This document shows, piece by piece, positions 8,740 to 62,999 of a stretch of 64,000 nt of DNA. The stretch's first letter is position 1; each line of letters begins with the position of its first letter. The translations under genes and the position numbers were made by a program. The notes beneath the pieces are model-generated. The model did no database searches and was not told the DNA's origin. It worked only from the letters and a program-made list of their open reading frames with translations. The stretch comes from an uncultured Flaviramulus sp. (GTDB lineage: Bacteria; Bacteroidota; Bacteroidia; Flavobacteriales; Flavobacteriaceae), in the NCBI GenBank assembly GCA_947501105.1, contig CANMUP010000002.1, forward strand, positions 806,001 through 870,000, given 5' to 3'.

Positions 8740-8883
8740 AAGATTAAAAACAAATGAGGTTTTACACAAAACTTGGCTTACAATAAATAAAAGATAACAA
8801 TCATTTTAAAATTTAAACTACACTTTAATATTTTATATACTTCAAACAAAAAAGCTGGATTAACAACAAATAAAAAAACGAAT

Positions 8884-13837: not shown

Positions 13838-15241
13838 ATGAATCATTTGAGTAAGCTATTCTGCTTTACCATTTTAATAATTTGTGTTTTTAAAGTGAAT
13901 GCTCAACAGCAAATATTAGAAAAGCCAAACATTATATTTATCCTTGCAGATGATTTAGGCTGGGGTGATGTTGGTTTTAATGGACAAACCAAAATAAAAA
14001 CACCAAACATAGACAAACTAGCAAAAGAAGGAATAGTTTTTAATAATTTCTATGCAGGAAGCACAGTTTGTGGGCCTTCAAGAGCCTCTTTGCTAACCGG
14101 CATGCATACAGGGCATTCTACAGTTCGAGGAAATCCTAGGTGGACAGCATCAGGAAAACCTGTAGACATTAAGGATGAAGATATAACCATTGCAGAAGAA
14201 TTAAAAAAAGCAGGATATAGAACCGGTATTATTGGCAAATGGGGATTAGCAGAGAACTTAGATAAAGGAAAACCAAATAATCAGGGGTTTGATTATTTCT
14301 ACGGCTTTAATAAGCATTTGCCAGCACATCATTACTATCCAGATTCAATATGGGAAAACAATAAAAAAGTTATAATTGATGGCAATAATTGGAAGTTAAA
14401 AAAGAAACACTATGTTCAAGATTTGTTTACTCAAAAAGCAAAAGAATTTGTTGATAACAATAAAGAAAAACCTTTCTTTCTTTATTTAGCTTATACTACG
14501 CCACATTTTGAATTAACAGTGCCTGAGGATTCAAAAAAACAATACTTAAATAAAGAATGGCCATTAAGAGAAATGAAGCCTAGGCATTATTTACACGATA
14601 AGAATGGCCATGTTACGTATGCTGCTATGATTTCTAGATTGGATGAACATGTTGGAGAGTTAATGGTGCAATTAAAGCGTTTAAATATCGACAAAAATAC
14701 GTTGGTTATTTTTACTAGCGATAATGGGCATGAATATGATAATTTAAACAAAGAGTTTTTTAATAGTAATGGACCTTATAGAGGTCGTAAAAGAGACTTA
14801 TATGAAGGCGGTGTAAAAGTTCCTTTTGTGGCTAAATGGCCTAATATAATAAAACCAAGTAAACAAAGTAATCACATTTCAGCATTTTGGGATGTATTGC
14901 CTACACTTTGTGAAATTGCTGATATTAAGCCAACAACAAAAGCTGACGGAATTTCTTTTTTACCTTCTTTAAAAGGATCTAAGTCGAAACAAGATTCTCA
15001 TGAATATTTATATTGGGAATTTAATGAGTCAAAAGGTCCTATTCAAGCAATTAGATGTGGAAAGTGGAAAGCCTTAAAATATTATAATAAACCAATCGAA
15101 TTATACAATTTAAAAAAGGATAAAGAGGAGACTAATAATATAGCAATTAAGTACCCTTCAAAAATATCTAAATTCAAAGATTTATTTATAACAGCAAGAA
15201 CAGATAATCCAGAATTTCCTTTAGTTAAAAAGAGGAGATAA
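13838..15241 (+). CDS. Arylsulfatase-like sulfatase (S1 family)
   Basis: A complete 467-residue sulfatase with a signal peptide (ends near VNAQQ). Motifs in order are NIIFILADDLGWGDVG (metal Asp pair), VCGPSRASLLTG with Cys78 as formylglycine precursor, IGKWGL, and TSDNGHEYDN (second metal site). EGGVKVPFVAKWP and the C-terminal LYNLKKDKEETNN complete the fold. The CGPSR form differs from the CSPTR form of the previous sulfatase, so the two are not recent duplicates and likely cut different sulfate positions. It is the last recognisable gene of the glycan block before the mobile element. Confidence 0.93.
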   Translation: MNHLSKLFCFTILIICVFKVNAQQQILEKPNIIFILADDLGWGDVGFNGQTKIKTPNIDKLAKEGIVFNNFYAGSTVCGPSRASLLTGMHTGHSTVRGNPRWTASGKPVDIKDEDITIAEELKKAGYRTGIIGKWGLAENLDKGKPNNQGFDYFYGFNKHLPAHHYYPDSIWENNKKVIIDGNNWKLKKKHYVQDLFTQKAKEFVDNNKEKPFFLYLAYTTPHFELTVPEDSKKQYLNKEWPLREMKPRHYLHDKNGHVTYAAMISRLDEHVGELMVQLKRLNIDKNTLVIFTSDNGHEYDNLNKEFFNSNGPYRGRKRDLYEGGVKVPFVAKWPNIIKPSKQSNHISAFWDVLPTLCEIADIKPTTKADGISFLPSLKGSKSKQDSHEYLYWEFNESKGPIQAIRCGKWKALKYYNKPIELYNLKKDKEETNNIAIKYPSKISKFKDLFITARTDNPEFPLVKKRR

Positions 15242-19554: not shown

Positions 19555-21135
19555 ATGATAAACTTACAATTACTAATTCCGTCATTGATCTTAGGAGGGC
19601 TTATGTCCTATATAGTCAACAAATATGTGCGTCAAGGGGCTTTTATGATATTCATGTGCCTGATTCTGGCTTCGGTTATTATCGGGGTGATTATGGACTT
19701 TCAAGCCTTATTAAAAGCCATACTCCTTATGGTTGTACCCTGGCAATTTATAAACCTGGTGTGCTATGCTTATGGCGGGAACAGCGAAGACCAAATCATC
19801 CGAAAAGAATATAAAGTGGTGATCAAAACTCGGGGAGCTAATCTCGTTCTGGAAAATATTAGACGCGGCATCTCAGTCATTGCAGCAGCAGGCAGTGGCA
19901 AAACGGAAAGTATTATCTACGGCTTGATGAAGCACTTTAAAGATCATAAATTTTGTGGTGTTATCCATGACTATAAGCATTTTGAAATCACCGAAATGGC
20001 ATATCCCTTATACCTAAATAGTGGAAACAAATTTTATATTGTTTCTTTTGATCCCATTCATTACAGAGTCAACCCCATTGCTCCAAAATATTTGCCTGAT
20101 GAAGAGAGCGTTTATGAAGTGTCTAGAGTGCTTCTGGAAAATCTAATGGAGACCAAAGAAGCGGATAATAATAGTACCTCACGTTTTTTTAAAGATGCCG
20201 TAGAAGGACTTATCAGTGGGCTGATTTGGCGTTTAAGAACAGATTATAAGGACTATTGTACGATACCACACTTAATAGCCCTTTATCAGCAATTGGGGAC
20301 CAAAGGACTCCTGAAATTTTTAAAGGCTGATTTGACCGCCAGAGCCATGGCAGATGCCTTTATTAGCGGGGTAGGATCCGAACGGCAAACCGCTGGCGTG
20401 AAAAGTACCTTAGCGAATGCCTTTAAAAAAATCAGTACTAAAAAAATATTCATGGCCTTGTCCTCCGATGATATTCCACTTGATATCAATAACCCAGAAG
20501 ACCCTGCTGTTATTTGTGTGGTCAATAACCCCAAAAAGGATGCCTCGTTATCACCAATCATAGCCACCATTTTGCATACCATAACCAAACAAATAAGTGA
20601 GCGAAAGCGGTTGCCTTCATTTATGTTATTAGAGGAAGCGCCGACCATCCGGCTTTTGCATATGCACCGCATCCCAGCGACTTTGAGAAGCTATGATATC
20701 GCAACGGTGTATGTGATGCAAGATAAAATTCAGAATGATATGCTCTATGGTGAAAAGGCCAGTAGAGCCATACTCAGTAATCTGTCCTATCAGTTCTTTG
20801 GGAAAGTTAATGATCCAGATACAGCCAAGTACTATGAGCGTTTTTTCGAAATCGTGAAGAATCCAACCAAAAGTATAAGTAAAGGAACCGGGCTGACCTG
20901 GGAAGCCCGAATTACTAAAGGCGAACGAGAAGTGCCTAAACGACGAGCAGAAATCTTTTTTAGATTGAAGCAAGGGGAGTTTATAGTGTTTGCGGATGGC
21001 AAGGATAAAAAAGTGCGGTTTAAACGTCCACATATTATTAAGGAACTTCCAGAGCCTCCAAGAGGGTATACCGAGAAGGATTTACAATTAAACTTTAACA
21101 GGATCTATAGCGAGGTAAAATCTATGTTTAAATAG
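19555..21135 (+). CDS. VirD4/TraG-type coupling ATPase
   Basis: A 526-residue type IV coupling protein (often called MobC in these elements). Hydrophobic segments at about residues 3-20 and 28-70 anchor it in the inner membrane. The ATPase follows, with Walker A AAAGSGKTESI (Gly113 to Thr117) and a Walker B-like strand FMLLEEAPTIRLL. NLSYQFFGKVNDPDTAKYYE and the later arginine-rich part match the VirD4 fold. It would deliver the relaxase-DNA complex to the TraG channel ATPase encoded about 35 kb to the right. Mobilization genes and channel genes sit at opposite ends of this ICE, with cargo between them. Confidence 0.9.
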   Translation: MINLQLLIPSLILGGLMSYIVNKYVRQGAFMIFMCLILASVIIGVIMDFQALLKAILLMVVPWQFINLVCYAYGGNSEDQIIRKEYKVVIKTRGANLVLENIRRGISVIAAAGSGKTESIIYGLMKHFKDHKFCGVIHDYKHFEITEMAYPLYLNSGNKFYIVSFDPIHYRVNPIAPKYLPDEESVYEVSRVLLENLMETKEADNNSTSRFFKDAVEGLISGLIWRLRTDYKDYCTIPHLIALYQQLGTKGLLKFLKADLTARAMADAFISGVGSERQTAGVKSTLANAFKKISTKKIFMALSSDDIPLDINNPEDPAVICVVNNPKKDASLSPIIATILHTITKQISERKRLPSFMLLEEAPTIRLLHMHRIPATLRSYDIATVYVMQDKIQNDMLYGEKASRAILSNLSYQFFGKVNDPDTAKYYERFFEIVKNPTKSISKGTGLTWEARITKGEREVPKRRAEIFFRLKQGEFIVFADGKDKKVRFKRPHIIKELPEPPRGYTEKDLQLNFNRIYSEVKSMFK

Positions 21136-23112: not shown

Positions 23113-23883
23113 TTATGATAGCTTTTGCAAGGCTTTCAACTCCACACCCAAATTATTAAACATACTGATGATGCTACTAATCTTTAATTCTTCTTCATCA
23201 TATTCTTGGGTATTAATGCTACAAGTAAACTCCCATATTTCAAGAACTTCGTTTATAGGTACGCTATAATCATGATACATTTTGTTATCAGAGATCAAGA
23301 GCAAGGAATTATTTAAATCAATGTTATTCATCACCCGTTTATAAACCATCCCATCATTAAGCGTGACAAGCACATAGGTTTTCCCCGTTTTAATATCATT
23401 CCGGTCTTCAATAAACTTACCCACCACATAAGAACCACTTTTTATAGGTAACATAGAATCGCCTTTTATGGGAAAAGCACGGTGCTTACCCGTTGGTAAA
23501 AAAGGCAGTTTAATTTTATCTAAGTGCTCAATATATTCTGGGTCGTCATATCCATTTAAATACCCAGCTGAGGCTTTTGTTGGAACGACCTCGATGAGGT
23601 TTTCATTATCGGAATCTACCAGGATAGGGAATAACACACGCTGATTTCCGATTTCAATAAATGAGGATTCTTTGGACTTGGTCAAGTCCTTTTTAATGAG
23701 AATATCTACAGGGATTTTAAAATAATCAGATAGTTTGATGAGCATCTCAATAGTGGGTGCCGACCGGTTTTCTTCATAAGATCCTATTCTTGAACGCGTC
23801 ACGTCAAGCTCGTCCGCAAGCCCTTCCTGTGATAGTCCTTTGAGCGATCGTAAGTGTTTGATGTTTTTTGCTATAATTTTCAT
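23113..23883 (-). CDS. LexA-like repressor (XRE helix-turn-helix + S24 peptidase)
   Basis: A 256-residue self-cleaving repressor. The helix-turn-helix is at residues 8-60 (LSQEGLADELDVTRSRIGSY). The S24 domain shows the Ala-Gly cleavage site in TKASAGY, the catalytic serine in KGDSMLP and the lysine in MVYKRVM. Such proteins cleave themselves on RecA filaments and then release their targets. It is divergent from the Y-family polymerase gene with only 52 bp between, so it most likely controls that operon and its own. It heads a two-gene minus-strand operon with the exonuclease. This is the clearest regulator of the module. Confidence 0.9.
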   Translation of the reverse strand: MKIIAKNIKHLRSLKGLSQEGLADELDVTRSRIGSYEENRSAPTIEMLIKLSDYFKIPVDILIKKDLTKSKESSFIEIGNQRVLFPILVDSDNENLIEVVPTKASAGYLNGYDDPEYIEHLDKIKLPFLPTGKHRAFPIKGDSMLPIKSGSYVVGKFIEDRNDIKTGKTYVLVTLNDGMVYKRVMNNIDLNNSLLLISDNKMYHDYSVPINEVLEIWEFTCSINTQEYDEEELKISSIISMFNNLGVELKALQKLS

Positions 23884-23935
23884 AATACTACAAATATAAG
23901 CAATAAATACTTAAAATTGTAGCTAATTTTGTGAT
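23884..23935. promoter_or_regulatory. Divergent SOS-type operator/promoter
   Basis: In the 52 bp between the S24 repressor and the polymerase gene, CTACAA (23888-23893) faces TTGTAG (23917-23922). CAAATATA at 23891-23898 reads TATATTTG on the minus strand, and TAATTTTG lies at 23924-23931 on the plus strand. Both fit TAnnTTTG, the Bacteroidetes -7 box. Both genes would have very short leaders, and a repressor on the repeat would cover both starts. Confidence 0.6.
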
Positions 23936-25150
23936 ATGAAAAAGAGCATATTGCATATGGATTTGGATACCTTTTTTGTGTCCTGTGAGCGACTCATTGA
24001 TAGTAAACTGCAGAAACGACCGTTGTTGGTTGGTGGTACTGGAGACCGCGGCGTTGTATCCGCATGCAGCTATGAGACCCGTAAGTTTGGAGTGCATTCT
24101 GGGATGTCCATGAAGCTAGCCAAACGCTTATGTCCTGAAGCCGTAGTCATTCGTGGAAACGCGTCAACCTATTCAAAATATTCCCATCTGGTGACCGATA
24201 TTATTAAAGAAAGCGTACCCATTTTTGAAAAAGCAAGTATTGATGAATTTTATGCCGATTTAAGTGGTATGGATAAGTTTTTTGGGAGCTATAAATATGC
24301 CTCTGAACTCCGAGCAACCATCATAAAAGAAACAGGACTGCCTATTTCTTTTGGATTGTCCCAAAATAAGATCGTGTCTAAAGTTGCCACTGGTGAGGCA
24401 AAACCTAATAACCAGCTGCGGATAGATCATGGGTTTGAAAAATCTTTTTTAGCCCCCTTATCCATTAGGAAGATCCCTTCAGTAGGTGAAAAAACATATA
24501 AAATACTTAGGAATCTGGGGATTGATAAAGTTCAGGTCATACAGCAAATGCCTGTGGAAATGATGACCAGTGTTTTAGGTGTTAATGGATTGACCATTTG
24601 GAAACGTGCCCAAGGGATTGATAATCCGCCATTAATTCCGTTTCATGAACGAAAATCAATTTCTATAGAACGCACTTTTACTAAAGATACCATTGATATG
24701 GTGAAACTGCGCACCACTATTTTTGCTATGGCTGAAAGTTTAGCCTACCAATTGCGTAGTGGTGATAAACTAGCTGCCTGTATTAGTGTAAAGATTAGGT
24801 ACTCCGATTTTAATACCTATAGCAAGCAACAAAAAATAGCCTATACCAGTGCCGATCATGTGATTATTCCAAAAGTGCTAGACCTCTTTGATAGTCTATA
24901 TCAACGACGTTTATTAATTCGATTAGTAGGCGTGAAGCTTAGTCATATTGTGAGTGGTAATTATCAGATTAATTTATTTGATGATACCCAAGAGATGCTC
25001 AGTTTGTATAAAGCCATGGATACCATTAGAAGTCGGTATGGAGAGCATAGCATTCAAAAAGCATCTGGGATGGGCGCCAAAACTATAGGTGGATCTCATA
25101 ATCCTTTTAATGGGGAGCCTCCTATAATCTTAGCACATAGAAAGCAATAA
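23936..25150 (+). CDS. Y-family DNA polymerase (DinB/UmuC type)
   Basis: A 404-residue translesion polymerase. The palm has MDLDTFFVSCER and SIDEFYADLSG (catalytic Asp and Glu). The finger region VGGTGDRGVVSACSYETRKFGVHSGM and the helix-hairpin-helix at about 180-205 (IPSVGEKTYKILRNLGI) are present, followed by a little-finger domain. It would insert bases across lesions and raise mutation rate. It lies just after the divergent operator, and its stop overlaps the start of the polymerase III gene (TAATG), so the two are translated together. DinB and UmuC are not easily separated by eye; pairing with an S24 repressor is more UmuC-like. Confidence 0.92.
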   Translation: MKKSILHMDLDTFFVSCERLIDSKLQKRPLLVGGTGDRGVVSACSYETRKFGVHSGMSMKLAKRLCPEAVVIRGNASTYSKYSHLVTDIIKESVPIFEKASIDEFYADLSGMDKFFGSYKYASELRATIIKETGLPISFGLSQNKIVSKVATGEAKPNNQLRIDHGFEKSFLAPLSIRKIPSVGEKTYKILRNLGIDKVQVIQQMPVEMMTSVLGVNGLTIWKRAQGIDNPPLIPFHERKSISIERTFTKDTIDMVKLRTTIFAMAESLAYQLRSGDKLAACISVKIRYSDFNTYSKQQKIAYTSADHVIIPKVLDLFDSLYQRRLLIRLVGVKLSHIVSGNYQINLFDDTQEMLSLYKAMDTIRSRYGEHSIQKASGMGAKTIGGSHNPFNGEPPIILAHRKQ

Positions 25151-28107
25151 TGTATTTAAATTGTCACTCTTATTATTCCTTGCGTTATGGTACATTTTCT
25201 GAAGTGGACCTATTGCAATTGGCTCAAGAATATGGGGTGAAGACCTTAGCACTTACCGATATTAATAATACATCAGCCTGTTTGAATTTTATCAGAAAAT
25301 CTAAAGAATTTAATATCAAACCCGTTGTGGGGATCGATTTTAGAAATGGAAATACGCAACAGTTTGTGGGACTCGCCAAAAACAATCAAGGGTTTCAGGA
25401 GCTAAACGCTTTTTTATCTGAGCATAGTCATCAACATAAAGCGATACCTGATACAGCGCCTCATTTTAAGCATGCCTATGTGATTTATCCTTTTGAGCGG
25501 GTTTTACAACAAGAACGAACAGCATTCAAATCCCATGAATTTATAGGGGTTTCTATTGAAGAACTCCGGAAATTACCCTTTACAACCTATAAGCGGTTTA
25601 AGAATAAATTAGTCATTCAGCAACAGGTGACTATCAGGAGTAAGCGTGATTTTAATGCCCATCGATTACTGAGAGCTATAGGTAACAATATCCTCTTAAG
25701 TAAGCTTCAAAAAAGTGACGAGTGCAAAGAAACAGATATGATGCTCGATCTGGATGCTCTCAAAAAAGCGTTTGCCGAATACCCGCATATCATTTCAAAT
25801 ACAGAAAAAATATTAGAAGCCTGTCAAATTGATTTCAGCTTCGGAGCAGATCGAAACTCCCAAAACCAAAGCTTGTATTTAGACTCAAAAGAGGCCGATT
25901 ATCAATTATTAGTCAAGCTCTGCCATTCGAATCTAAACAGTCGCTATGCCAATCCGAACCAAAAGGTAAGGTCACGATTGCAAACCGAATTAAAGACCAT
26001 CAAAGCCATGGACTTTGTGTCTTACTTTTTAATCAATCATGATATTGTGTCTTATTCCAAACGTATGGGGTATATCCACGTGGGCAGGGGCAGTGGTGCC
26101 AACAGTATTGTAGCCTATATTATAGGCATTACCGATGTAGACCCTATTGAATTGGATTTGTATTTTGAACGTTTTATCAATCCTTTTAGAGCCTCCCCAC
26201 CAGATTTTGATATTGATTTTTCATGGAAGGACCGCGAGGATATTACCCAGTACATATTTAGACGGTTTAAGCATACCGCCTTATTAGCAACCTATAACAC
26301 CTTTAAATATAAAGGAGTGGTTAGGGAACTCGGTAAAGTGTTCGGATTGCCTAAAGAAGAGATCGATAAATTAAGCTCAGGCCATTTTATCTCGGATGAG
26401 TTGGATGAGATGTCAAAACTCGTTTTAAAGTATGGGAAACTCATACAGGGATTTCCGAATCATTTAAGCGTGCATTCCTGTGGTATTTTAATTTTAGACC
26501 AGCCCATTCATTATTATTCGGCTACCGATCTACCACCAAAAGGGTTTCCAACGGTACAGTTTGATATGATCATTGCCGAAGACGTCGGCGTGTTTAAGTT
26601 TGATATTCTAGGGCAACGGGGGTTGGCGAAAATTAAAGAAGCTATTGAAATTATTGCATACAACCAACCCGAATTACCGCCCATAGATATTAACCAAGTA
26701 GAGCGTTTTAAACAAGATCCAAAGATTAATAATTTATTGAAAAGGGGTAAAGCCATTGGTGCTTATTATGTCGAGTCTCCTGCCATGCGCGGTTTGATGC
26801 AAAAACTACAAACTCAGGATTATTTGGGTTTGGTAGCTGCAAGTTCCATCATTAGACCTGGGGTGTCGAGCTCCGGCATGAAAAAGGAATTTATTATAAG
26901 ACAGCGTTTTCCCGAAAAACGACAGGATGCCAACCCCATGCTGCTCAAAATTATGCCTGAGACCTATGGAATTATGGTCTATCAGGAAGATGTGCTTAAA
27001 GTAGCCAATCAATTTGCGGGTTTAACCTTAGGTGAAGCCGATGTACTCCGTCGCGGGATGAGTGGTAAGTTCAGATCCCGAACCGAGTTTATAGCCGTAG
27101 AAGAAAAGTTTATTGCCAATTGTAAAGCCAAAGGTTATCCAGAAACATTGACTAATGAAGTTTGGAATCAAATTAAAAGTTTTGCGGGTTATGCTTTTGC
27201 CAAAGGACATTCCGCATCCTATGCCGTGGAGAGCTACCAGAGTTTGTATCTTAAGTGTTATTTCCCCTTGGAGTTTATGGTGGCGGTCTTAAATAACGGT
27301 GGTGGATTTTATAGTGCAGCCCACTATATCCATGAGGCGCGCATGTGTGGTGGAATTATTAATGCACCATGTATTAATACCAGCGATCATGCTAATATTA
27401 TAAAAGGGAAACATATTTATTTAGGTTTTGGGTATTTAAAAAGCCTAGAGGTCTTAACCATTAAACGCATATTAAGTGAAAGGCAGCTTTATGGCAGCTT
27501 TAAATCCTTAGATGATTTTATCGATCGAGTCATCATAAGTATTGAACAGCTTACCATTCTTATTAGAATTGATGCCTTTAGATTTACCCGTCAATCCAAA
27601 ACAGAATTGTTATGGCAGGCTATTTTTAAGTTACAGGCCACCAAAGTCCGAACCACACAAGCCAAATTGTTTAAACCAAAGCATAAACAGTTTCAGTTAC
27701 CTAGTTTAAAGACCTCCTTAGTAGAAAACGCATACGATCAATTGGAATTATTGGGGTTTCCACTTTGTAATTACTTCGATTTAATTGATGACCCCTTGCA
27801 TAAACATATCCTAGCAAAGGACATGAAAAATCATATTAATCAAAAGGTGCTGCTTTATGGGACTTTGGTAAATACCCGTTTTCATAAATCATCTCAAGGG
27901 AAACTCATGCGATTTTGCACCTTTACCGATAGGGAAGGGGCTTACTTTGATACGGTGCATTTTACTAAAGTGGTTGATAGATATCCCATTACAGGGATAG
28001 GGGTTTATGCCTGTTATGCGAAAGTTACCGAGGAATTTGATTTTTGTAGCTTGGATATTATATGGTCCAAAAAACTGGCTTTTAAACCAGACCCTAGAAG
28101 TTTATAG
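25150..28107 (+). CDS. DNA polymerase III alpha-like (DnaE2-type) polymerase
   Basis: A 985-residue family C polymerase, shorter than the replicative DnaE (about 1150-1450 residues). The N-terminal PHP domain starts MYLNCHSYYSLRYGTFSE. The palm has HVGRGSGANSIVAYIIGITD and the catalytic aspartates in PPDFDIDFSW. It ends soon after an OB-like segment, so the C-terminal beta-clamp/tau region is reduced. Such short DnaE forms are encoded next to Y-family polymerases in mutagenesis cassettes. Overlap with the upstream gene, and an S24 repressor at the head of the divergent operon, support damage-induced expression. A replicative role for an ICE-borne copy is unlikely. Confidence 0.88.
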   Translation: MYLNCHSYYSLRYGTFSEVDLLQLAQEYGVKTLALTDINNTSACLNFIRKSKEFNIKPVVGIDFRNGNTQQFVGLAKNNQGFQELNAFLSEHSHQHKAIPDTAPHFKHAYVIYPFERVLQQERTAFKSHEFIGVSIEELRKLPFTTYKRFKNKLVIQQQVTIRSKRDFNAHRLLRAIGNNILLSKLQKSDECKETDMMLDLDALKKAFAEYPHIISNTEKILEACQIDFSFGADRNSQNQSLYLDSKEADYQLLVKLCHSNLNSRYANPNQKVRSRLQTELKTIKAMDFVSYFLINHDIVSYSKRMGYIHVGRGSGANSIVAYIIGITDVDPIELDLYFERFINPFRASPPDFDIDFSWKDREDITQYIFRRFKHTALLATYNTFKYKGVVRELGKVFGLPKEEIDKLSSGHFISDELDEMSKLVLKYGKLIQGFPNHLSVHSCGILILDQPIHYYSATDLPPKGFPTVQFDMIIAEDVGVFKFDILGQRGLAKIKEAIEIIAYNQPELPPIDINQVERFKQDPKINNLLKRGKAIGAYYVESPAMRGLMQKLQTQDYLGLVAASSIIRPGVSSSGMKKEFIIRQRFPEKRQDANPMLLKIMPETYGIMVYQEDVLKVANQFAGLTLGEADVLRRGMSGKFRSRTEFIAVEEKFIANCKAKGYPETLTNEVWNQIKSFAGYAFAKGHSASYAVESYQSLYLKCYFPLEFMVAVLNNGGGFYSAAHYIHEARMCGGIINAPCINTSDHANIIKGKHIYLGFGYLKSLEVLTIKRILSERQLYGSFKSLDDFIDRVIISIEQLTILIRIDAFRFTRQSKTELLWQAIFKLQATKVRTTQAKLFKPKHKQFQLPSLKTSLVENAYDQLELLGFPLCNYFDLIDDPLHKHILAKDMKNHINQKVLLYGTLVNTRFHKSSQGKLMRFCTFTDREGAYFDTVHFTKVVDRYPITGIGVYACYAKVTEEFDFCSLDIIWSKKLAFKPDPRSL

Positions 28108-29302: not shown

Positions 29303-30850
29303 ATGACAAGCACAAGCCAAAGAGCAGAATTACAAGCTCAAATATGGAAAATAGCCAATGATGTACGTGGGTCTGTAGATGGATGGGATTTCAAACACTT
29401 TGTATTAGGTACACTTTTCTATCGTTTTATTAGCGAGAATTTCATCAATTATATTGAAGCTGGCGATGAGAGTGTAAATTATGCTAACCTGCCAGATGAT
29501 GTAATTACACCTGAAATAAAAGATGACGCCATAAAAACTAAAGGATATTTTATTTATCCAAGTCAATTGTTTGTTAACATTGCTAAAAATGCTAACGATA
29601 ACGAAAACCTAAATACCGATTTAGCAGCTATATTTTCAGCTATTGAAAGTTCTGCAAATGGCTATCCATCAGAGCAAGATATAAAAGGGTTATTTGCAGA
29701 TTTTGATACCACAAGTAACCGACTAGGAAATACCGTTGAAAATAAAAACAGTCGTCTTGCATCAGTTTTAAAAGGTGTTGAAGGCTTAAATTTTGGAAAT
29801 TTTGAGGATAACCAAATTGATTTGTTTGGTGATGCTTATGAGTTTCTTATCTCTAATTATGCGGCAAATGCAGGTAAGTCTGGTGGTGAATTTTTCACAC
29901 CTCAAAAGGTTTCTAAGCTTATTGCACAATTGGCAATGCACAAGCAAGAAAAGGTAAATAAAATTTACGACCCAGCTGCAGGTTCAGGTTCTTTACTATT
30001 ACAAGCTAAAAAACACTTTGATAGCCATATTATAGAAGAAGGTTTTTATGGGCAAGAAATAAACCATACCACCTATAACTTAGCACGTATGAATATGTTC
30101 TTACATAATATCAACTACGATAAGTTTCATATAGTATTGGGTAATACGCTTGAGAATCCGCATTTAGGCGATGAAAAACCATTTGATGCTATTGTATCTA
30201 ATCCACCGTATTCAGTAAAATGGAAAGGGAGTGATGACCCAACATTGATTAACGATGACCGTTTTGCACCTGCAGGTGTATTAGCACCAAAATCTAAAGC
30301 AGATTTTGCATTTGTACTACATTCATTAAGTTACTTGTCCAGCAAAGGTAGAGCAGCTTTGGTTTGTTTTCCTGGCGTTTTTTATCGTGGTGGTGCAGAA
30401 CAAAAAATAAGAAAATATTTAGTAGATAATAATTACGTAGAAACGATTATTGCTTTAGCGCCAAATCTCTTTTTTGGTACTTCTATATCAGTAGATATTC
30501 TAGTGCTTTCAAAAAACAAAACTGTTAATACAACTCAATTTATAAATGTAAGTGGTGAAGATTTCTTTAAAAAAGAGGGAAATATTAACATTCTTAAAGA
30601 TGAACACATTGTCCAAATAATGGAGATGTTTGATAGTAAGGAAGATGTTAAATATATAGCAAAATCAGTAGACAATATTAAAATTGCCGAAAACGATTAT
30701 AACCTCTCTGTAAGTTCTTATGTTGAACCTAAAGACATGCGTAAGAAAGTAAATATTATAGAGCTTAATAAAGAAGTAGAAGTAACAGTTAAGAAGATAG
30801 TTAAACTTCGTGCTGATATTGATAAGATTGTAAACGAAATTGAAGTATGA
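29303..30850 (+). CDS. hsdM: Type I restriction-modification methyltransferase HsdM
   Basis: A 515-residue N6-adenine methyltransferase subunit. The N-terminal helical domain opens with the segment [17 protein letters not shown]. The SAM-binding motif [11 protein letters not shown] is at residues 223-233, and the catalytic motif NPPYSV begins at residue 300. Together with HsdS it methylates the recognition site and protects the host. It starts a compact five-gene unit and overlaps hsdS by four bases (ATGA). The gene order and the HsdS layout below suggest a type IC (EcoR124-like) enzyme. The locus has cargo-like AT composition relative to the ICE core. Confidence 0.95.
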
Positions 30851-32040
30851 GTAAGTTAGAGAGTTCGTTGGATGGTATTTATATTGAATGGAAATGTTTA
30901 GGTGATGTAGCTGAATTAAAAAGAGGTAAGACAATAACAAAAAAAAACAAAAAGGATGGTGATATTCCTGTAATTAGTGGCGGGCAAAAACCTGCATATT
31001 ACAATGGAGATTATAACAGAGATGGTGAAACAATTACTATTGCTGGTAGTGGTGCATCCGCAGGTTATGTAATGTATTGGAATCAACCAATCTTCGTCTC
31101 TGATGCTTTTTCAGTATTACCCGAACCTTCTGTATTAGAAATAAGGTATATCTATCATTTATTGTTAAACAAACAGTCATGGATATATAAATTACAAAAA
31201 GGTGTTGGTGTACCGCATGTATATCCTAAAGATTTAGCTAAACTCGAAATCCCAATCCCATGTCCGGATAATCCAGAAAAATCACTAAAAATCCAAAAGG
31301 AAATAGTTCGTATTTTAGATACTTTTACAGAACTTACTAAAGAACTTACTAAAGAACTTACAGCACGTAAAAAACAGTATAATTATTACCGTGAGCAGTT
31401 ATTAACTTTTGATGAAAAAGAAGTAAAATATTTACCTATGGATGATGATAATGTGGGTGAATTTATTAGAGGTAAACGATTTGTAAAAACCGATATGATT
31501 AATGAAGGTGTCCCATGTATACACTATGGTGAAATGTATACCCATTATGGTACATGGGCAGACAAAACCAAATCATTTGTTAGTAAAGATTTAGTAGAAA
31601 ATAAAAATCTTAGGCTTGCCGAAAAAAATGATGTTATAATCGTGGCTGCTGGAGAAACAATTGAAGATATAGGTCAAGGAACGGCGTGGTTAGGTCAAGA
31701 AGGTGTTGTTATTCACGATGCTTGCTTTTATTATAGGAGTACATTGAACCCTAAATATGTAGCTTATTTTACTAAAACAAGGCAATTTCATAACCAAATT
31801 AGAAAACATATTCGTACAGGAAAAATTTCTGCAATTAATGCTAAGGGTTTAGGTAAAACCTTAATTCCTATTCCACCTATTGAAGAACAAAAACGTATAG
31901 TGAAAATATTAGATAAATTTAATATTCTCACCAATTCTGTAAGTGAAGGTTTGCCTAAAGAAATAGAACTGCGTAAAAAACAATACGAGTATTATAGAAA
32001 TAAGCTACTAACATTTCCTAAAGATACTGTAGAAGTATAA
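30847..32040 (+). CDS. hsdS: Type I restriction specificity subunit HsdS, type IC-like
   Basis: A 397-residue specificity subunit with two target-recognition domains (about 1-155 and 185-350). Each is followed by a coiled conserved region: [15 protein letters not shown] and [15 protein letters not shown]. Just before the first coil, residues about 161-173 read [13 protein letters not shown], with two exact 12-bp units ACTAAAGAACTT (31336-31359). In the type IC enzyme EcoR124 a TAEL repeat at this place changes the length of the site's spacer when its copy number changes. The gene overlaps hsdM by four bases and ends four bases before the PrrC-like gene. Confidence 0.93.
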
Positions 32041-32044
32041 GTAT

Positions 32045-33274
32045 ATGAGTCAGTCATTAACAGAAATAGCACAATCACTAAAAGATAGCCCTAAAAAAGT
32101 ACAATTAATATATGCTTTTAATGGTACAGGGAAAACACGCTTATCACGTAAATTTAGATTATTAGTAGACCCAAAAGATACAGATGAGGAGCAGGAAGAA
32201 CAAGAAACGTCAGGTATTAAAGTAATGTATTACAATGCTTTTACAGAAGACCTTTTTTATTGGGATAATGATTTAGATGCAGACACCAATAGAAAATTAA
32301 TCATACGCCCTAATAACTTTACGGATTTGGCCTTAGGTTTTTTGAAAGACCAAGGATTAGATAATAATATCGTTACCAATTTTCAGCATTTTACCAGCGA
32401 TTCTTTAACACCTCTTTTTAATGAAGAGTATACTACTCAAGATAACAATGGGAATGATATTGTTGTAAAAGCATATTCGGAAGTAACATTTTCAATAACA
32501 AGCGGTGATGACCAAGGTTTGCCAAATATTAAAATTTCAAAAGGAGAAGAAAGTAATTTTATATGGTGTGTATACTATAGTTTAATAGAACAAGTAGTTG
32601 AGCTTTTAAATACCCCAGAACTTGAAGATAGAGCAACCAATCAATTCAATGATGTAGAGTATGTGTTTATTGATGACCCAATAAGTTCACTTGATGAAAA
32701 TCATTTAATCGAATTAGCAGTAAATTTAGCTGAATTGATTAAGAAATCAAATGGAATAAAATTTATAATTTCAACACACAGCCCACTTTTTTACAATGTT
32801 TTATATAACGAGCTAGGTCTTAAAAGCAAGAAAAATTCTTGTTTTATGTTAAGCAAAAATGAGGATGGCACGTATGATTTCGATAACAAATATGGGGATT
32901 CAAATAAAAGCTTTTCATATCATTTATATCTAAAGGAGACAATTGAAGAAGCAATAGAATCAAATTCTATTGAGAAGTATCATTTTATGTTACTTCGTAA
33001 TTTATACGAAAAAACGGCTAATTTTTTAGGGTATCCAAAATGGTCAGATTTATTACCAGATGACAAACAAACCTATTATAATAGAGTAATTCAATTTACA
33101 AGTCATTCAACGTTATCAAATGAAGTTGTTCCTGAACCAACGGAGCCGGAAAAACAGATTGTGAAGTTTTTACTAGACCATTTAATTGAAAGTAATTATT
33201 GGAAAGAAGAAATAGCAGTTGAACCTGCAACAGAGGAAGCCTCAACAATAGAAACAGAAAATGAAACACTATAA
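32045..33274 (+). CDS. PrrC-like anticodon nuclease
   Basis: A 409-residue ABC-type ATPase with a C-terminal nuclease region. Walker A is YAFNGTGKT, and the signature and Walker B region is ISKGEESNF followed by [14 protein letters not shown], as in PrrC. In the C-terminal part, Arg318 and Glu322 (LLRNLYEKT) and His354 (FTSHST) reproduce the catalytic triad of E. coli PrrC (R320, E324, H356), with identical spacing of 4 and 32. The gene sits between hsdS and hsdR, as prrC does in the prr locus. E. coli PrrC (396 residues) cleaves tRNA-Lys in the anticodon loop when phage disables the restriction enzyme it is held by. The target here is inferred. Confidence 0.85.
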
Positions 33275-36200
33275 AACCATAGCAGAATCAAACAATTTTA
33301 TTGTTTTAGATAAATACAAAAAGTTTTCAGAACTTAATGAAGCACCTGCGGGATATCAAACAGAGGCAGACTTAGAAAAAGAACTCGTACAGGATTTAAT
33401 AAATCAAGGCTATGAGTATGTAAAAAGCTTAACCACACCTACCGAAATGTTAGCTAATGTTCGTGTACAATTGCAACAATTGAATGATATGCAATTTACA
33501 GACAAAGAATGGGAACGCTTTGTATTAGAGTATTTAGATAAGCCTAGTGATAACTTAGTGGATAAAACAAGAAAGTTACACGATAATTATATCTATGATT
33601 TTGTTTTTGATGATGGTCATATTCAAAATATTTATTTAGTAGATAAAAAAAACATAGTACGTAATAAATTACAAGTTATTTCTCAGTTCGAGCAAAAAGG
33701 TACAAATGCCAATCGTTATGATGTTACCATATTAGTGAACGGTTTACCTTTAGTACAAGTAGAATTAAAAAAACGTGGTGTAGCTATTCGTGAAGCTTTT
33801 AATCAGGTGCATCGCTATACCAAAGAAAGTTTTAATACTTCAAACTCACTTTTTAAATACTTGCAAATATTTGTAATATCTAATGGTACAGATAGTCGTT
33901 ATTTTGCTAATACAGTAGAGCGTAGTAAAAACAGCTTTGATTTTACCATGAATTGGGCAAAGGCTGATAATTCACTTATAAAAGATATAAAAGACTTTAC
34001 AACTACATTTTTTGATAAACGAACACTTTTAAACGTATTGCTTACCTATTCTGTTTTTGACGTTAGTAATACGCTATTAGTAATGCGACCGTATCAAATT
34101 GCAGCAACAGAAAGAATCTTATGGAAAATAGAAAGTTCATATAACTCTAAAAATTGGGCTACAACAGAAAGCGGAGGTTTTATTTGGCATACAACAGGGT
34201 CTGGTAAAACATTAACAAGTTTTAAGGCAGCACGTTTAGCAAAAGACCTAAGCTTTATAGATAAAGTATTTTTTGTGGTAGATAGAAAAGATTTAGATTT
34301 TCAAACCATGAAAGAATATCAACGCTTTTCACCAGATAGTGTAAACGGTTCAGATAGTACAGCTGGTTTAAAAAGAAATATAGATAAAACAGATAATAAA
34401 ATTATTGTTACCACCATTCAGAAGCTGAATAACTTAATAAAAAGTGAAAATGACTTAGATATTTACCAAAAGCAAGTAGTCTTTATTTTTGATGAAGCAC
34501 ACCGTTCGCAATTTGGGGAAGCACAAAAGAACTTAAAGAAGAAGTTTAAAAAATACTATCAGTTTGGCTTTACAGGAACACCTATTTTTCCTGAAAATGC
34601 ATTAGGTTCAGAAACTACAGCAAGCGTATTCGGTAGAGAACTACATTCTTACGTAATCACAGATGCTATTAGAGATGAAAAAGTACTAAAGTTTAAAGTA
34701 GATTATAATGATGTTCGTCCAAAGTTTAAAGGCATTGAGACAGAGCAAGATTTAAAAAAATTGTCAGCAGCAGAAAACAAAAAAGCTTTATTACATCCTG
34801 TTCGTATTAACGAAATCTCTCAATATGTTTTACAACATTTCAGACAAAAAACACACCGAACAAAAGGGAGCAATAGCGGTTTTAATGCGATGTTTGCAGT
34901 AAGTAGTGTTGATGCAGCAAAATGTTACTACGAGGCGTTAAATAAGCTTCAAATAGATAGAGATAAGCCTTTAAAAATAGCGACTATTTTTTCTTTTGCA
35001 GCCAATGAAGAACAGAGTGCAATTGGTGAAATTCTAGATGAAACGTTTGAGCCTACTGCAATGAACAGTAGCGCAAAGGAGTTTTTGTCTAAAGCTATTG
35101 ATGATTATAATGCTGCCTTTAAGATGAATTATAGTATTGATAGCAAAGGCTTTCAAGATTATTATCGAGACCTTGCAAAACGAGTAAAAAGTAAAGAAGT
35201 TGATTTATTGATAGTGGTAGGTATGTTCTTAACTGGTTTTGATGCACCTACCTTAAATACTTTATTTGTAGATAAAAATTTACGTTATCACGGTTTAATG
35301 CAAGCTTTTTCACGTACTAATCGTATTTATGATGCTACCAAGACTTTTGGAAATATTATTACGTTTAGAGATTTAGAAAAAGCTACCATAGATGCGATTA
35401 CTCTTTTTGGTGATAGTAGCACTAAAAATGTAGTATTAGAAAAAAGCTATAAAGAATATTTAGAAGGGTTTACAGATATTGCAACGGGTAAAGCTAGTAG
35501 AGGTTATGTAGAAGTGATAAATGAGTTAAATGAAAAATTTCCTAACCCTGATAAAATTGTAACAGAAAAGGATAGAAAAGCATTTGCTAAACTATTTGGA
35601 GAGTATTTACGTGTAGAAAACATACTTCAAAATTATGACGAGTTTGTTTATTTAAAAGAACTTCAAAGCATCGATAAAACTGATACAGTTGCAATAGAAG
35701 AGTTTAAAGAAGATAATTTTTTGTCAGACGACGATATTGCTAATATGCAAGGTATTGTAGTACCAGCAGAAAGAACAATTCAAGATTATCGCTCTACTTA
35801 TAATGATATACGTGATTGGTTGCGACGAGAGAAAAAAGGTAATGAAGCTGAAGAATCAGATATTGATTGGGATGATGTTGTATTTGAAGTAGATTTATTA
35901 AAATCACAAGAAATAAACTTAGACTATATTCTTGAATTGATTTTTGATAGTCATAAGAAAACTAAAGACAAATCAGAATTAGTAGAAGAAATAAGACGTG
36001 TAATACGTGCAAGCATTGGAAATAGAGCAAAAGAAAGTTTGGTAGTAGACTTCATCAATGAAACTGATTTAGATGATATAAAAGAAAAAGCCAATATTAT
36101 AGATGCTTTCTTTGGATATGCACAAGCCAAACAGAAAAAAGAAGCTTCTGAATTAATTACAAATGAAAATTTAAATGAAGAAGAAGCGAAACGTTACATA

Positions 36201-36368
36201 ACAACATCATTAAAACGTGAATACGCTAGTGAAAACGGTACTGAATTAAATTCAGTTTTACCTAAAATGAGTCCTTTAAACCCTCAGTACTTAACTAAAA
36301 AACAAAGTGTTTTTCAGAAGATTTCCTCTTTTGTAGAGAAGTTTAAGGGTGTTGGTGGGCGTTTATAA
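33261..36368 (+). CDS. hsdR: Type I restriction endonuclease/translocase HsdR
   Basis: A 1035-residue restriction subunit. The N-terminal nuclease has a PD-(D/E)xK signature ([22 protein letters not shown]). The translocase shows Walker A TTGSGKT (residues 311-317), DEAHRSQFG (411-419), GFTGTPIF and a later helicase motif QAFSRTNR. The C-terminal helical part should bind the methylase core. It overlaps the PrrC-like gene by 14 bases and is followed 14 bp later by another nuclease-like gene, so expression is coupled. It would cut unmodified incoming DNA, and its complex with HsdM and HsdS is the expected holder of the PrrC-like toxin. Confidence 0.95.
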
Positions 36369-36382
36369 TAGAAATATATTTT

Positions 36383-37288
36383 ATGCACTTATATAATTTA
36401 AAATCAAAAGAGTCTATTGCTATCTTAAAGGAGAAACCTTTTAAATTAGAAAAGGAAATACAATCGCTTTTTGAAAGTAATTTAAATGAGTTAATGAATT
36501 TACAATTAGTAAAATCAGAGTTCTCAATCAAAAACAAACGTATAGATACGTTAGCTTATGATGCACAATCAAATGCATTTATAATTATCGAATATAAGCG
36601 TAGTAAAAATATTAGTGTTGTTGACCAGGGTTTTACCTATTTGAGTTTAATGCTCGAAAACAAAGCAGATTTTATTGTAGAGTATAATGAAACGCTAAAG
36701 CAAAATTTACAGCGTACAGATGTAGATTGGAGTCAAACAAGAGTTGTGTTTGTTTCAACAGGCTTTACTGAAAATCAAAAAACTGCAACAAACTTTAAAG
36801 ATATTGCTATTGAATTGTGGGAAGTAAAACGATATGAAAATAACCTAATTAGTGTTAATCAAATAAAGAAAAGTAAGTCGGCTGAAAGTATAAAACCAAT
36901 TACATCAAGTAATGAGCAATTAAATAATATCACTAAAGAAATAAAGGTTTATTCAGAAGAAGATCATACATTAAATAAGTCTGATAGTGCTGTAGAGTTG
37001 TATGAGACTTTTAGAGACTCTATTTTAAATTTCAAAGAAGACATAGAAATAATACCACGAAAGAAAAGAATTGCGTTTAAAGGTAACCGTATTATTTGCG
37101 ATATTTTAATTCAAAAAAGCGGTATAAAGCTATGGGTAAACTTAAAAAGTGGTGAACTCGACGATCCTAAAAATTTAATGCGTGACGTTTCTAATATAGG
37201 TCACTGGGGAAATGGTGATTATGAACTAGTAATAAAAAATACTGACGATTTAGAATATATTATGAGCTTAATAAAACAAGCAATATAA
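36383..37288 (+). CDS. Accessory PD-(D/E)xK-type nuclease (DUF5655-like end)
   Basis: A 301-residue protein in the same unit as hsdR. The N-terminal half has the order KRIDTLAYD (Asp), then FIIIEYKRSKN (Glu and Lys), which is the PD-(D/E)xK nuclease core. The C-terminal segment (DILIQKSGIKLWVNLK, then NIGHWGNGDYELVI) resembles the DUF5655 tail found in predicted endonucleases and transporters. It begins 14 bp after hsdR. It may be an extra defence nuclease or an accessory of the type I complex; it is not part of the classical prr locus. No active site beyond the motif can be proven by eye. Confidence 0.7.
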   Translation: MHLYNLKSKESIAILKEKPFKLEKEIQSLFESNLNELMNLQLVKSEFSIKNKRIDTLAYDAQSNAFIIIEYKRSKNISVVDQGFTYLSLMLENKADFIVEYNETLKQNLQRTDVDWSQTRVVFVSTGFTENQKTATNFKDIAIELWEVKRYENNLISVNQIKKSKSAESIKPITSSNEQLNNITKEIKVYSEEDHTLNKSDSAVELYETFRDSILNFKEDIEIIPRKKRIAFKGNRIICDILIQKSGIKLWVNLKSGELDDPKNLMRDVSNIGHWGNGDYELVIKNTDDLEYIMSLIKQAI

Positions 37289-37469: not shown

Positions 37470-37709
37470 CTAACTATGTTTTACCTCAAAATCAAATAAT
37501 TCTTTCGGATGTATATCTAGACCTCTAGATAATTCAGCCAAAGTGGTGATTTGAATACTAATCAATCCTTTTTCAATTTTGCTAATTTGGCTGTGGTCTA
37601 CATCACATAATTGAGCTAGCTCCCTATAACTAAGTCCTTTTCCTTTTCTTATCTTTTTCAAATTAATACCAAATGACTTTAATAATGATTTTTTTGATGC
37701 TTCCTCCAT
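37470..37709 (-). CDS. Short XRE-family DNA-binding protein
   Basis: A 79-residue helix-turn-helix protein, read from the ATG at 37709 (MEEASKKSLLKSFGINLKKI). A longer frame starting upstream is unlikely because its extra 46 residues are hydrophobic and not conserved-looking. The helix-turn-helix is LSYRELAQLCDVDHSQISKIEKG. Such short Cro/C-type proteins control restriction loci or mobile elements. It lies right of the restriction unit and faces it tail to tail, so it may be a controller of this locus or of the SusC unit on its other side. TATATTTG-like sequence was not found upstream. Confidence 0.75.
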   Translation of the reverse strand: MEEASKKSLLKSFGINLKKIRKGKGLSYRELAQLCDVDHSQISKIEKGLISIQITTLAELSRGLDIHPKELFDFEVKHS

Positions 37710-38560
37710 TTTGATTAAGATATTGAGGTAATATCCAAGAATTCTAAATAAATTTTGTAGTATCATTATACTACAAATAAAATATTTTCTTATCTTAGCC
37801 TCAGAATTATTAAATTTGCGATTCTTCATATAAAATATTTGAAGCATTCGCTTTGAATCTCGCCTTAGAAAACTGGTAATTTTTGCAACGAGATGATAAG
37901 TAAGATGCTCACGTCTAAGGGCGTGGGCTCACTTATTGTTGCATGGTATACCAGTACCTCTAGGGCAGTAAGCTGAGTTCCGCGCCTTTTTGTATCTATA
38001 CATTTTGGTTTATACTCAACAGTTCTTAGCATTGTTTTCATAATTTTTGGAATTGTAAACATGGTTTAAATTTTAATTAGAATGCAAAACATATTTTGTA
38101 TACCAAAACATAGTGTCTATCTCCAGCTCTTTTACGAGTTAGGAGTTTCTGTGTTAGACATTCTCTTTAAGAAAAAACCTAAAGGCCCGATATAGGCCAA
38201 TTTTGCTATGGGATGTACGCTACATCTATTCTGGATTTTATTATTTACTCCTTTTTATCCCATAGCCACGACATTCATATTTTAATGGTATCCAGACCAA
38301 TCACGTTACATAAAGCCTAAAGCTTATATGCTTTCAGATGCCCTTTTGTGCATTCGTTTGAGTTAGTCATTTACACCAAATAGGTGTGTAAAAGAATGAC
38401 CCCAAGGACTTATGAAGGCTATATCAAATGAATACTAACATAACACAACATTGCCTATGATGAGACACTAAAAAACAAAAAGCCTCCTAACAAACTTTCG
38501 AACGGTCAATAGGAGGCTTATACCGATTAAACAAATTAATGTTCAACCTAATTCAAAATT
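37710..38560. other. Long leader between the XRE gene and SusC
   Basis: About 850 bp. It contains GCTATGGGAT (38205-38214) facing ATCCCATAGC (38257-38266), a perfect 10-bp pair 42 bp apart. Around 37885-37942 there is an imperfect pairing of GATAAGTAAGATGCTCACG with CGTGGGCTCACTTATT. The stretch is GC-richer than flanking genes and resembles leader DNA of this kind of ICE. An open frame on the minus strand (37865-38062) does not look like a gene. Confidence 0.5.
38480..38519 (+). promoter_or_regulatory. Leader hairpin before SusC
   Basis: AAGCCTCCTA (38480-38489) and TAGGAGGCTT (38510-38519) are perfect inverted repeats with a 20-base loop, 41 bp before the SusC start. No T run follows, so it is more likely a leader element than a terminator. 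Confidence 0.6.
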
Positions 38561-61452: not shown

Positions 61453-62691
61453 TTAGACGATATTATTAATGTCTTTCTTAATTTGAAATTTATTTCGTAA
61501 AACTTTCATGTCATCACTCACTTTTCTATCTATTATTTTAGCGTAATGTTGAGTTGTTTTTAGAGATTTATGGCCTAGCATTTTGCTTACAGATTCTATA
61601 GGAACACCATTAGTAAGTGTAACTGTAGTAGCAAAAGTATGGCGAGCTAAATGAAATGTTAGGTTTTTATTGATTCCACATAAGTCTGCTATTTCTTTTA
61701 AATAGGCATTCATTTTTTGATTGCTTAAAACAGGAAGAACCCGTTCACTATCAATGATATCAACATGTTTGGTGTACTTATTTAGAATAGCTTCTGCAGT
61801 TGGGAGAATAGGGATATTACTTCTCGTGTTTGTCTTTTTTCTTTTAGTTTTAATCCAGCGTTCACCATCAATCCCAACGACTATATCATTTTGCGAAAGT
61901 TTTTGGACATCGACATACGCTAATCCAGTGAAGCAACTAAATACAAAGATATCCTTAACTAAATCTAAGCGCGGAATATTAAACTCTTTCTTAATCATTT
62001 TTTGAACATCTAATTCACTCAAAAAATCACGTTCCACAATTTTCCATTTAGCTTTCCAATGAAAAAACGGATCCTTGCTTATCCAATCATTAGCATAGGC
62101 AATTCTTGTAATTTTTTTTAAATTGGTTAAATATTTAGTGATTGTGTTTTGATTTCCTATATCTTTTATTTTTAAATAGTACTCAAATCCATTAATGAAC
62201 TTTAAATCTATATCCTGAATAAAAATATCATTCACACTGTACTCTTTTTGAATATAGCATTGTAAATGGTTACTGGTTCTAACATAACGCTTATAACAGC
62301 CTGAAGAATAACTTTTGCCCACTAACGTTTCAATTTGATTATTATGCTCCGTGAAAATCTGTAAAATTGTTTTTCTTGTATCTTCTTTATTCAGGAACTT
62401 ATTTTTAATCATTAAAGCCGTAAATGGCTTGTCTTCAATGACAAATGTTTCTTGAATTTTGTAAAGTTTTGAACTGATTGAATTAATATACTTATTAAGC
62501 TGATAAGCTTCTTCACTATTCCCGTTTAACTTTCCAGAAATGGAGTTCCACTTGGTTGGATCAATTTTACGATTTATACTTATTTCACAGCGCTTGCCAT
62601 TAACCGTTATCCTAAGATATATGGAAATTCTCCCATTTTTACTTTTGCCTTTTTTCTTTGGATAAAACAAAATTGAAAATCTATTATTCAT
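61453..62691 (-). CDS. int: Tyrosine site-specific integrase
   Basis: A 412-residue tyrosine recombinase. The N-terminal arm-binding and SAM-like domains (about 1-210) precede the catalytic domain. Visible catalytic residues are His347 and Arg350 in FHLARHTFAT, His374 in LGHKSLKTTQ and the nucleophile Tyr383. The first arginine of the usual tetrad is not at its normal position (CFTGLAYVDVQKL), as is known for IntDOT-type integrases. It lies next to tRNA-Lys on the minus strand and would insert and excise the ICE there. The start codon at 62691 is the first Met in frame. Confidence 0.95.
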   Translation of the reverse strand: MNNRFSILFYPKKKGKSKNGRISIYLRITVNGKRCEISINRKIDPTKWNSISGKLNGNSEEAYQLNKYINSISSKLYKIQETFVIEDKPFTALMIKNKFLNKEDTRKTILQIFTEHNNQIETLVGKSYSSGCYKRYVRTSNHLQCYIQKEYSVNDIFIQDIDLKFINGFEYYLKIKDIGNQNTITKYLTNLKKITRIAYANDWISKDPFFHWKAKWKIVERDFLSELDVQKMIKKEFNIPRLDLVKDIFVFSCFTGLAYVDVQKLSQNDIVVGIDGERWIKTKRKKTNTRSNIPILPTAEAILNKYTKHVDIIDSERVLPVLSNQKMNAYLKEIADLCGINKNLTFHLARHTFATTVTLTNGVPIESVSKMLGHKSLKTTQHYAKIIDRKVSDDMKVLRNKFQIKKDINNIV

Positions 62692-62904: not shown

Positions 62905-62927
62905 AATAATTTTGAAGTGGTTCTAGT

Positions 62928-62999
62928 GACCGGGCTGGGGCTCGAACCCAGGACCCTCTCCTTAAAAGGGAGATGCTCTACCAACTGAGCTACCAGGTC
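62928..62999 (-). tRNA. tRNA-Lys (UUU)
   Basis: The cloverleaf reads on the minus strand with anticodon stem TCTCC/GGAGA and loop CTTTTAA, giving anticodon UUU. D-arm GCTC/GAGC and T-arm CTGGG/CCCAG pair fully. Two irregularities are visible. The T-loop is TTCGAG, one base short, so the gene is 72 nt instead of 73. In the acceptor stem GACCTGG/CCCGGTC, T5 faces C68. The 3' half may have been supplied by the ICE. The CCA end is not encoded. It is the likely attachment site of the element. Confidence 0.85.

Follow-up and report, generated by a model that had tools for sequence, protein, structure and literature searches.

A well-preserved prr-type restriction locus with an apparently mosaic PrrC anticodon nuclease on a flavobacterial integrative element

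We analyzed a stretch of 64,000 nucleotides (hereafter, the window) from an uncultured Flaviramulus sp. of the family Flavobacteriaceae (assembly GCA_947501105.1). The window corresponds to positions 806001-870000 of contig C2 (CANMUP010000002.1) in a genome of 4.19 Mb. It carries a prr locus, i.e., a type I restriction-modification (R-M) operon that includes prrC, the gene of a latent anticodon nuclease. Five open reading frames (ORFs) of 515, 397, 409, 1035, and 301 amino acids are tightly packed on the plus strand between positions 29303 and 37288. The first is hsdM, the gene of the type I DNA methyltransferase subunit (29303..30850; TIGR00497 with 636 bits at a cut-off of 243, N6_Mtase, HsdM_N). 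It is followed by hsdS, which encodes the DNA specificity subunit (30847..32040; Methylase_S in two stretches, PADLOC Specificity_I with 416 bits), and by prrC (32045..33274; PADLOC PrrC PDLC02360 with 464 bits, AAA_13). The fourth gene is hsdR of the restriction subunit (33261..36368; TIGR00348 with 667 bits, EcoR124_C, SWI2/SNF2, HSDR_N). The fifth gene (36383..37288; PADLOC PDC-S18 PDLC04945 with 463 bits, DUF5655 with 4e-11) lies on the same strand, separated from hsdR by 14 bases, and is a companion of the PDC-S18/DUF5655 kind.

The order hsdM-hsdS-prrC-hsdR at 29303-36368 is that of the E. coli prr locus. A preliminary description of this DNA had proposed the same order, and the ORFs together with the Pfam, NCBIfam, and PADLOC families bear it out. 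HsdM and HsdR are 78% and 74% identical, respectively, to those of an E. coli plasmid prr locus (L002). The EcoR124_C domain of HsdR is taken here as a mark of the type IC group; prrC sits inside a type IC hsd locus in the order M-S-prrC-R. The families, the catalytic triad, and the alignment to the E. coli plasmid PrrC also support the description of a complete prr-like locus with a PrrC-type anticodon nuclease. We thus confirm a well-preserved prr locus of a kind already known.

The PrrC protein consists of an N-terminal ATP-binding cassette (ABC) NTPase domain (approximately residues 1-265) and a C-terminal nuclease domain (approximately residues 266-390). It is 56% identical, over 95% of the protein, to the product of an E. 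coli plasmid gene annotated as an anticodon nuclease, which itself lies within an M-S-prrC-R locus. The identity to plasmid genes annotated in this way is 55-59%. Walker A, signature, Walker B, and linchpin histidine (H245) motifs of ABC NTPases are all present. The Walker motifs had been described as PrrC-like, and this holds: G29, K30, T31, D210, and D211 are invariant in the first 83 aligned rows, as are F25 and H245, and G27 is replaced by A in seven rows.

The residues R318, E322, and H354 (codons 318-354, 32996..33106, plus strand) align with R320, E324, and H356 of the E. coli plasmid PrrC with the same spacing of 4 and 32, exactly at the positions named beforehand. They correspond to the catalytic triad described in PMC2610378 and PMC3014915. 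The triad is retained in all 99 aligned PrrC rows, which include the window and, twice, one locus (L021, the same as L216). R347 and H354 fit the HEPN motif Rx4-6H as R347-x6-H354, and R347 is nearly invariant (31 rows); PrrC has been placed in HEPN (PMC3710099).

The third gene might alternatively encode a generic AAA/ABC protein or RloC, an anticodon nuclease that likewise joins an ABC NTPase to an R-E-H nuclease domain (PMC2610378). Its top Pfam match is the broad AAA_13 family, and the predicted structure (mean predicted local distance difference test score, pLDDT, of 75) is matched in Foldseek by Rad50, SMC, and PtuA-type NTPases. However, the next PADLOC model after PrrC scores only 51 bits, and the spacing of the triad is that of PrrC. 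Unlike RloC, the protein has no zinc-hook CXXC in its 409 residues, is shorter, and is embedded in a type I locus; an hsd gene stands beside prrC in every locus examined. We regard this alternative as practically untenable and, at the level of sequence, refuted: the third protein is a real PrrC.

Related loci were sought in genome_contigs, and the 80 best of 449 relatives by similarity to the query were studied. Since this ranking depends on the query, we also ran the PADLOC PrrC model on 397 genomes from the family to which the window belongs. Of the 80 genome_contigs loci, 72 have the complete set of four genes arranged M-S-prrC-R. In six of the other eight, the locus starts at a contig edge or close to one; in L045 and L066, the contig ends with no hsdR match. 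At least one hsd gene adjoins prrC in each locus. Within the family, 75 of the 397 genomes have a PrrC match at E 0.001, and 19 places exceed 300 bits. These 19 loci fall into two architectures: M-S-prrC-R in eight (one of them, G051, starts inside hsdS at a contig edge) and hsdR-hsdS-prrC-hsdM in 11 (L218 and L222-L231). PrrC proteins of the second architecture are 30-36% identical to that of the window and differ in the recognition region. HsdS directly precedes prrC in 18 of the 19 loci, and two genes intervene in L218; these calls were made with BLAST, with Pfam Methylase_S found in the ten loci L222-L231. This agrees with PMC3874168, according to which prrC always occurs in linkage with a type IC locus.

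The likely target of the nuclease can be approached through a peptide of 11 residues. Residues 282-292 of the window PrrC (32888..32920, plus strand) match the E. coli plasmid PrrC at residues 284-294 in every letter. These residues have a role in tRNA recognition by the E. coli protein, and the D of the peptide has been placed at the modified wobble base (PMC3014915). Among the sequence evidence, this identity points most strongly to tRNA-Lys as the target, and tRNA-Lys(UUU) is the likely one. Of the first 83 rows, the window included, all but L070 carry the letters DSN at positions 285-287 (82 rows), but just one of the 16 family loci added later does so. Thus, the DSN core is kept in four of the 19 family PrrCs (G000, G329, G060, and G051), and the triad is retained in all 19. 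A different tRNA may be recognized by the remaining 15.

These 15 proteins, with a different recognition region and the same triad, also favor the view that the window PrrC is intact but has a target other than tRNA-Lys, its recognition lying partly outside the peptide and another tRNA, or several, being cut. PrrC substrates may indeed vary among proteins (PMC3014915). However, the window peptide repeats that of the E. coli plasmid PrrC letter for letter, the D of the wobble base included, and we consider a different target quite improbable.

The most interesting part of the locus is the structure of PrrC, which in sequence comparisons is mosaic: the identities of its two domains to the window are discordant in both directions. 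The N-domain (residues 1-265) and the C-domain (residues 266-385) are 61% and 88% identical to the window in L216, versus 87% and 62% in L008. The corresponding values are 67% and 37% in L219, 67% and 32% in L221, and 79% and 38% in L070, in which there is a second drop of identity inside the N-domain. HsdR of these five loci is 72-91% identical to that of the window.

A maximum chi-square scan of the DNA of the window, L216, and L008 places a break at residues 283-286, which is the start of the recognition peptide. The statistic is 103, versus at most 24 in 2000 permutations. Other triples gave breaks at residues 284-286 (L216 versus the window and L043) and 300-301 (the window, L216, and L004). 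The choice of these triples was made with the mosaic pattern already known. Of two control triples, one was null (p 0.096), and the window with L007 and L043 showed a weaker break near residue 21 (p 0.002).

Pairwise distances were compared among the 71 loci with long hsdM and hsdR matches. Distances of the N-domain correlate with those of HsdR (r=0.66) and HsdM (0.66), and distances of the C-domain do so at 0.28 and 0.38, respectively. After removal of the share of the N-domain, the residual correlation of the C-domain is 0.01 with HsdR (p 0.45) and 0.16 with HsdM (p 0.04). Blocks of 120 residues of the N-domain, about equal in length to the C-domain, still correlate with HsdR at 0.57-0.63; therefore, the contrast is not caused by domain length. 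It is smaller (0.71 versus 0.49) among the 66 loci with the DSN peptide. Such co-divergence with HsdR and HsdM is consistent with the N-domain being the interface to the R-M enzyme.

Trees of the N- and C-domains reject each other, with a loss of log-likelihood of 492-910 in the C-domain comparisons. However, the two halves of the N-domain, taken as a control, also reject each other's trees (370-398). The conflict between domain trees is thus weakened as proof, by itself, of a domain swap, and the gene recombines elsewhere as well. Together with the conflict between the N-domain data and the HsdR tree, these rejections indicate that recombination acts on the whole gene, that the tie between the N-domain and the R-M proteins is loose, and that the nuclease domain is less tied still. 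The data suggest that the nuclease half has been exchanged between loci more freely than the NTPase half matched to the restriction enzyme.

With roughly even chances, this extends to a more general picture. PrrC would be a modular toxin with an NTPase half matched to HsdM and HsdR and a nuclease half that is replaced, together with the recognition peptide, at the domain boundary. A prr locus would then switch its target tRNA in much the way that DNA specificity is switched through hsdS, and for most PrrCs of the family the target would not be the E. coli-type tRNA. If so, phage tRNA repair or countermeasures based on phage tRNAs would meet a changing target. If the nuclease half is exchanged, the natural chimeras also allow the tRNA choice of different PrrCs to be tested directly. 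We found no account of PrrC domain exchange in a limited literature search that included the available portions of PMC2610378, PMC3014915, PMC3710099, PMC3874168, PMC12707154, and PMC9296519, and we make no claim of priority.

The fifth gene matches the PADLOC model PDC-S18, a phage defence candidate, end to end (residues 1-301 of 301); what is different is that the window copy trails an R-M operon. Its product is composed of a PD-(D/E)xK-like N-domain and DUF5655. The residues D55, E70, K72, and Q82 are invariant in ten of ten aligned proteins (that of the window included), and we take them to be the D...ExK core with a supporting Q of the PD-(D/E)xK motif. The preliminary description had assigned such a core to this gene: the residues stand, and the fold is of low confidence. 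The AlphaFold2 model is good in the DUF5655 part alone, with pLDDT mostly below 50 in the N-domain. The DUF5655 part weakly resembles YjbR-type proteins in Foldseek, with none at E<0.001. The N-terminal part has a weak likeness to NucS/EndoMS (NucS_C E=0.0018; NCBIfam NucS 2e-4; Foldseek probability at most 0.57 with E>1). All these matches are below the curated cut-offs, and the window protein differs from NucS/EndoMS in the attached DUF5655 as well as in the poor model of its N-domain. A single search of the full-text literature found no paper that names PDC-S18 or DUF5655.

The close spacing of the fifth gene to hsdR on one strand raises the question whether the five genes are a single enlarged prr system, with the fifth product acting together with PrrC or HsdR. 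The gene follows hsdR directly in six further prr loci (L008, L009, L010, L013, L018, and L043) and stands about 1.2 kb further on in L011. DNA homology between the window and L008, L009, and L010 is continuous through hsdR and the fifth gene. However, these seven loci, all from Flavobacteriia, are the only ones with a full-length copy after prr among the 80 from genome_contigs, or among the 67 of them that have at least 1 kb after hsdR. In L006 a remnant of 22 residues (13370-13468) follows hsdR and is itself followed by unrelated sequence.

A wider search for the gene gives a similar result. The PDC-S18 profile is found in 34 of the 397 family genomes, with full length in 21 places, namely the window and 20 others whose neighborhoods were read from fetched stretches. 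Eleven of the 21 copies are in an R-M operon, and just three of these operons have prrC (the window, G329, and G060). The partners of the others are a type IC operon without prrC (G071), other type I operons (G228, G153, G168, G134, G366, and G154), and a type III operon (G273); an R-M operon is absent or not visible at the remaining ten places. Two of the type I operons are especially telling. L182 (from G153) and L183 (from G168) match the window DNA between 33000 and 39000 over the fifth gene only, at 90% and 88%. At the protein level, their copies of this gene share 97% and 94% identity with the window copy, versus 80-81% for the prr loci L008-L010. In a sample of the phylum, PDC-S18 occurs in 21 of 296 genomes (E 1e-30), and an R-M gene lies no more than four genes away in nine of the 19 new ones, with confirmation by Pfam in six of these (L254, L255, L258, L259, L262, and L268).

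As a component of prr, the gene is therefore rejected on its distribution and on the single-gene homology in L182 and L183, and we consider one enlarged system rather improbable. The idea of a five-gene prr system is not supported, given the scarcity of prrC beside the R-M-linked family copies. Because it accompanies few prr loci, has varied R-M partners, and is shared alone with L182 and L183, we conclude that the fifth gene is an exchangeable R-M accessory and not a defining part of prr. We propose that it encodes a DNA nuclease that would act beside, and not within, the PrrC switch. It is an uncharacterised companion of R-M operons worth a study of its own. A DUF4062 gene and a Schlafen AlbA_2 gene lie between the type I operon and the PDC-S18 gene in L183 (7106-9164).

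The window locus can thus be viewed as the classic E. coli system, with its working parts almost unchanged, on a flavobacterial mobile element. Gene order, triad and spacing, NTPase motifs, and recognition peptide are those of E. coli prr (EcoprrI with PrrC), the comparison being made through the E. coli plasmid prr locus and not through the original EcoprrI record. The differences are the carriage on a flavobacterial integrative element, the PDC-S18 gene after hsdR, and the length of PrrC (409 residues versus 396). By analogy with E. coli, a prr-type two-tier defence system is very probably the best explanation of the locus.

HsdM, HsdS, and HsdR would form a type IC R-M enzyme, which marks self DNA by methylation and cleaves DNA that lacks the modification. 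PrrC would be bound to this complex via its N-terminal ABC NTPase domain and kept inactive. The trigger would be an invader that inhibits the restriction enzyme, as T4 Stp does in E. coli, or a rise of deoxythymidine triphosphate. Hydrolysis of nucleoside triphosphate would then free the C-terminal nuclease, which would halt translation by cleaving tRNA-Lys(UUU) in its anticodon loop, on the 5' side of the wobble base. The fifth gene would be an independent accessory, nuclease-like and mobile between R-M operons. The silencing, the trigger, the cleavage of tRNA-Lys, and the exclusion of phages are assumed from the E. coli system, for which the mechanism of PrrC has been published (PMC3014915, PMC2610378, PMC3710099, and PMC3874168).

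Several points weigh against this two-tier scheme. The predicted model of PrrC is of low confidence around the catalytic histidine (residues 353-361). A phmmer search found no PrrC-like chain in PDB by sequence, and a profile search gave three matches, all with E>0.1. The co-divergence of the N-domain with the R-M proteins is loose, the N-domain data rejecting the HsdR tree. At least two genes for tRNA-Lys(UUU) are present in the host. In the copy in the window, the anticodon stem is richer in G+C than in E. coli tRNA-Lys. A stable stem is reported to inhibit PrrC (PMC3014915).

The element that carries the locus encodes a coupling protein (19555-21135), a TraG-type ATPase (55181-57577), and a tyrosine recombinase (61453..62691, minus strand; Phage_integrase, Arm-DNA-bind_5, Phage_int_SAM_5). 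Beside the recombinase is a tRNA-Lys(UUU) gene (62926..62999, minus strand), which is the probable insertion site; its 3' end is repeated in the contig. These conjugation genes and the recombinase support the earlier report of an integrative element at a tRNA-Lys gene. Copies of the tRNA-Lys 3' end are located at C2:704615 (exact over 25 bp) and C2:773256 (exact over 18 bp), in addition to that at 62924-62948 of the window, and the regions surrounding the former two resemble each other (83% over 260 bases). The pattern is compatible with the insertion of one element or two into tRNA-Lys, of about 95.7 kb or, counted together, 164 kb; the three copies suggest tandem or accreted elements. A search for the empty insertion site among three genomes of the same genus gave no clear result. 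The genome has a second tRNA-Lys(UUU) gene. Two Fic-domain genes (1672-2757 and 3578-5125 of L203) flank the partial tRNA-Lys copy at C2:773256, one on each side. The element also has polysaccharide-use cargo, namely GH2 and GH95 glycoside hydrolases and two sulfatases (5425-15241 of the window).

The insertion of an element with prrC into a tRNA-Lys gene had been regarded as either a coincidence or an adaptive link. In the family, the surroundings of 18 other prr loci, up to 40 kb in either direction, showed no tRNA-Lys; ten of these loci were read over the full 80 kb and the others to the ends of contigs or fetched stretches. Only one of the 80 genome_contigs loci (L017) has tRNA-Lys in its flanks of up to 9 kb, a weak test because the tRNA-Lys of the window itself is about 26 kb from the locus. 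The adaptive link is therefore not supported, and the tRNA-Lys site of the element is best taken as chance. Some tRNA gene (Leu, Asn, Pro, Met, Arg, His, Glu, Gly, Asp, or Ser) is present at 11 of the 18 loci (read in L270-L328, L218, and L228) and lies within 10 kb of prrC at seven of these 11, as a raw count. Perhaps prr often rides on tRNA-linked islands.

Downstream of the fifth gene, a helix-turn-helix gene (37470-37847) was considered as a possible R-M control protein and set aside, since no homologue was found in the 80 prr loci (E 1e-5). Upstream of prr, the window contains genes of an S24-type regulator, an ImuB-type (IMS) polymerase, and a DnaE-type polymerase (23113-28107). An S24-type regulator and an IMS polymerase are encoded three to four genes after the second-architecture prr locus of L226 (2573-4607), and in L251 (8599-13076) a PDC-S18 gene is directly preceded by IMS and DnaE-type genes. 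The S24/IMS/DnaE neighborhood may be an insertion hotspot for defence genes.

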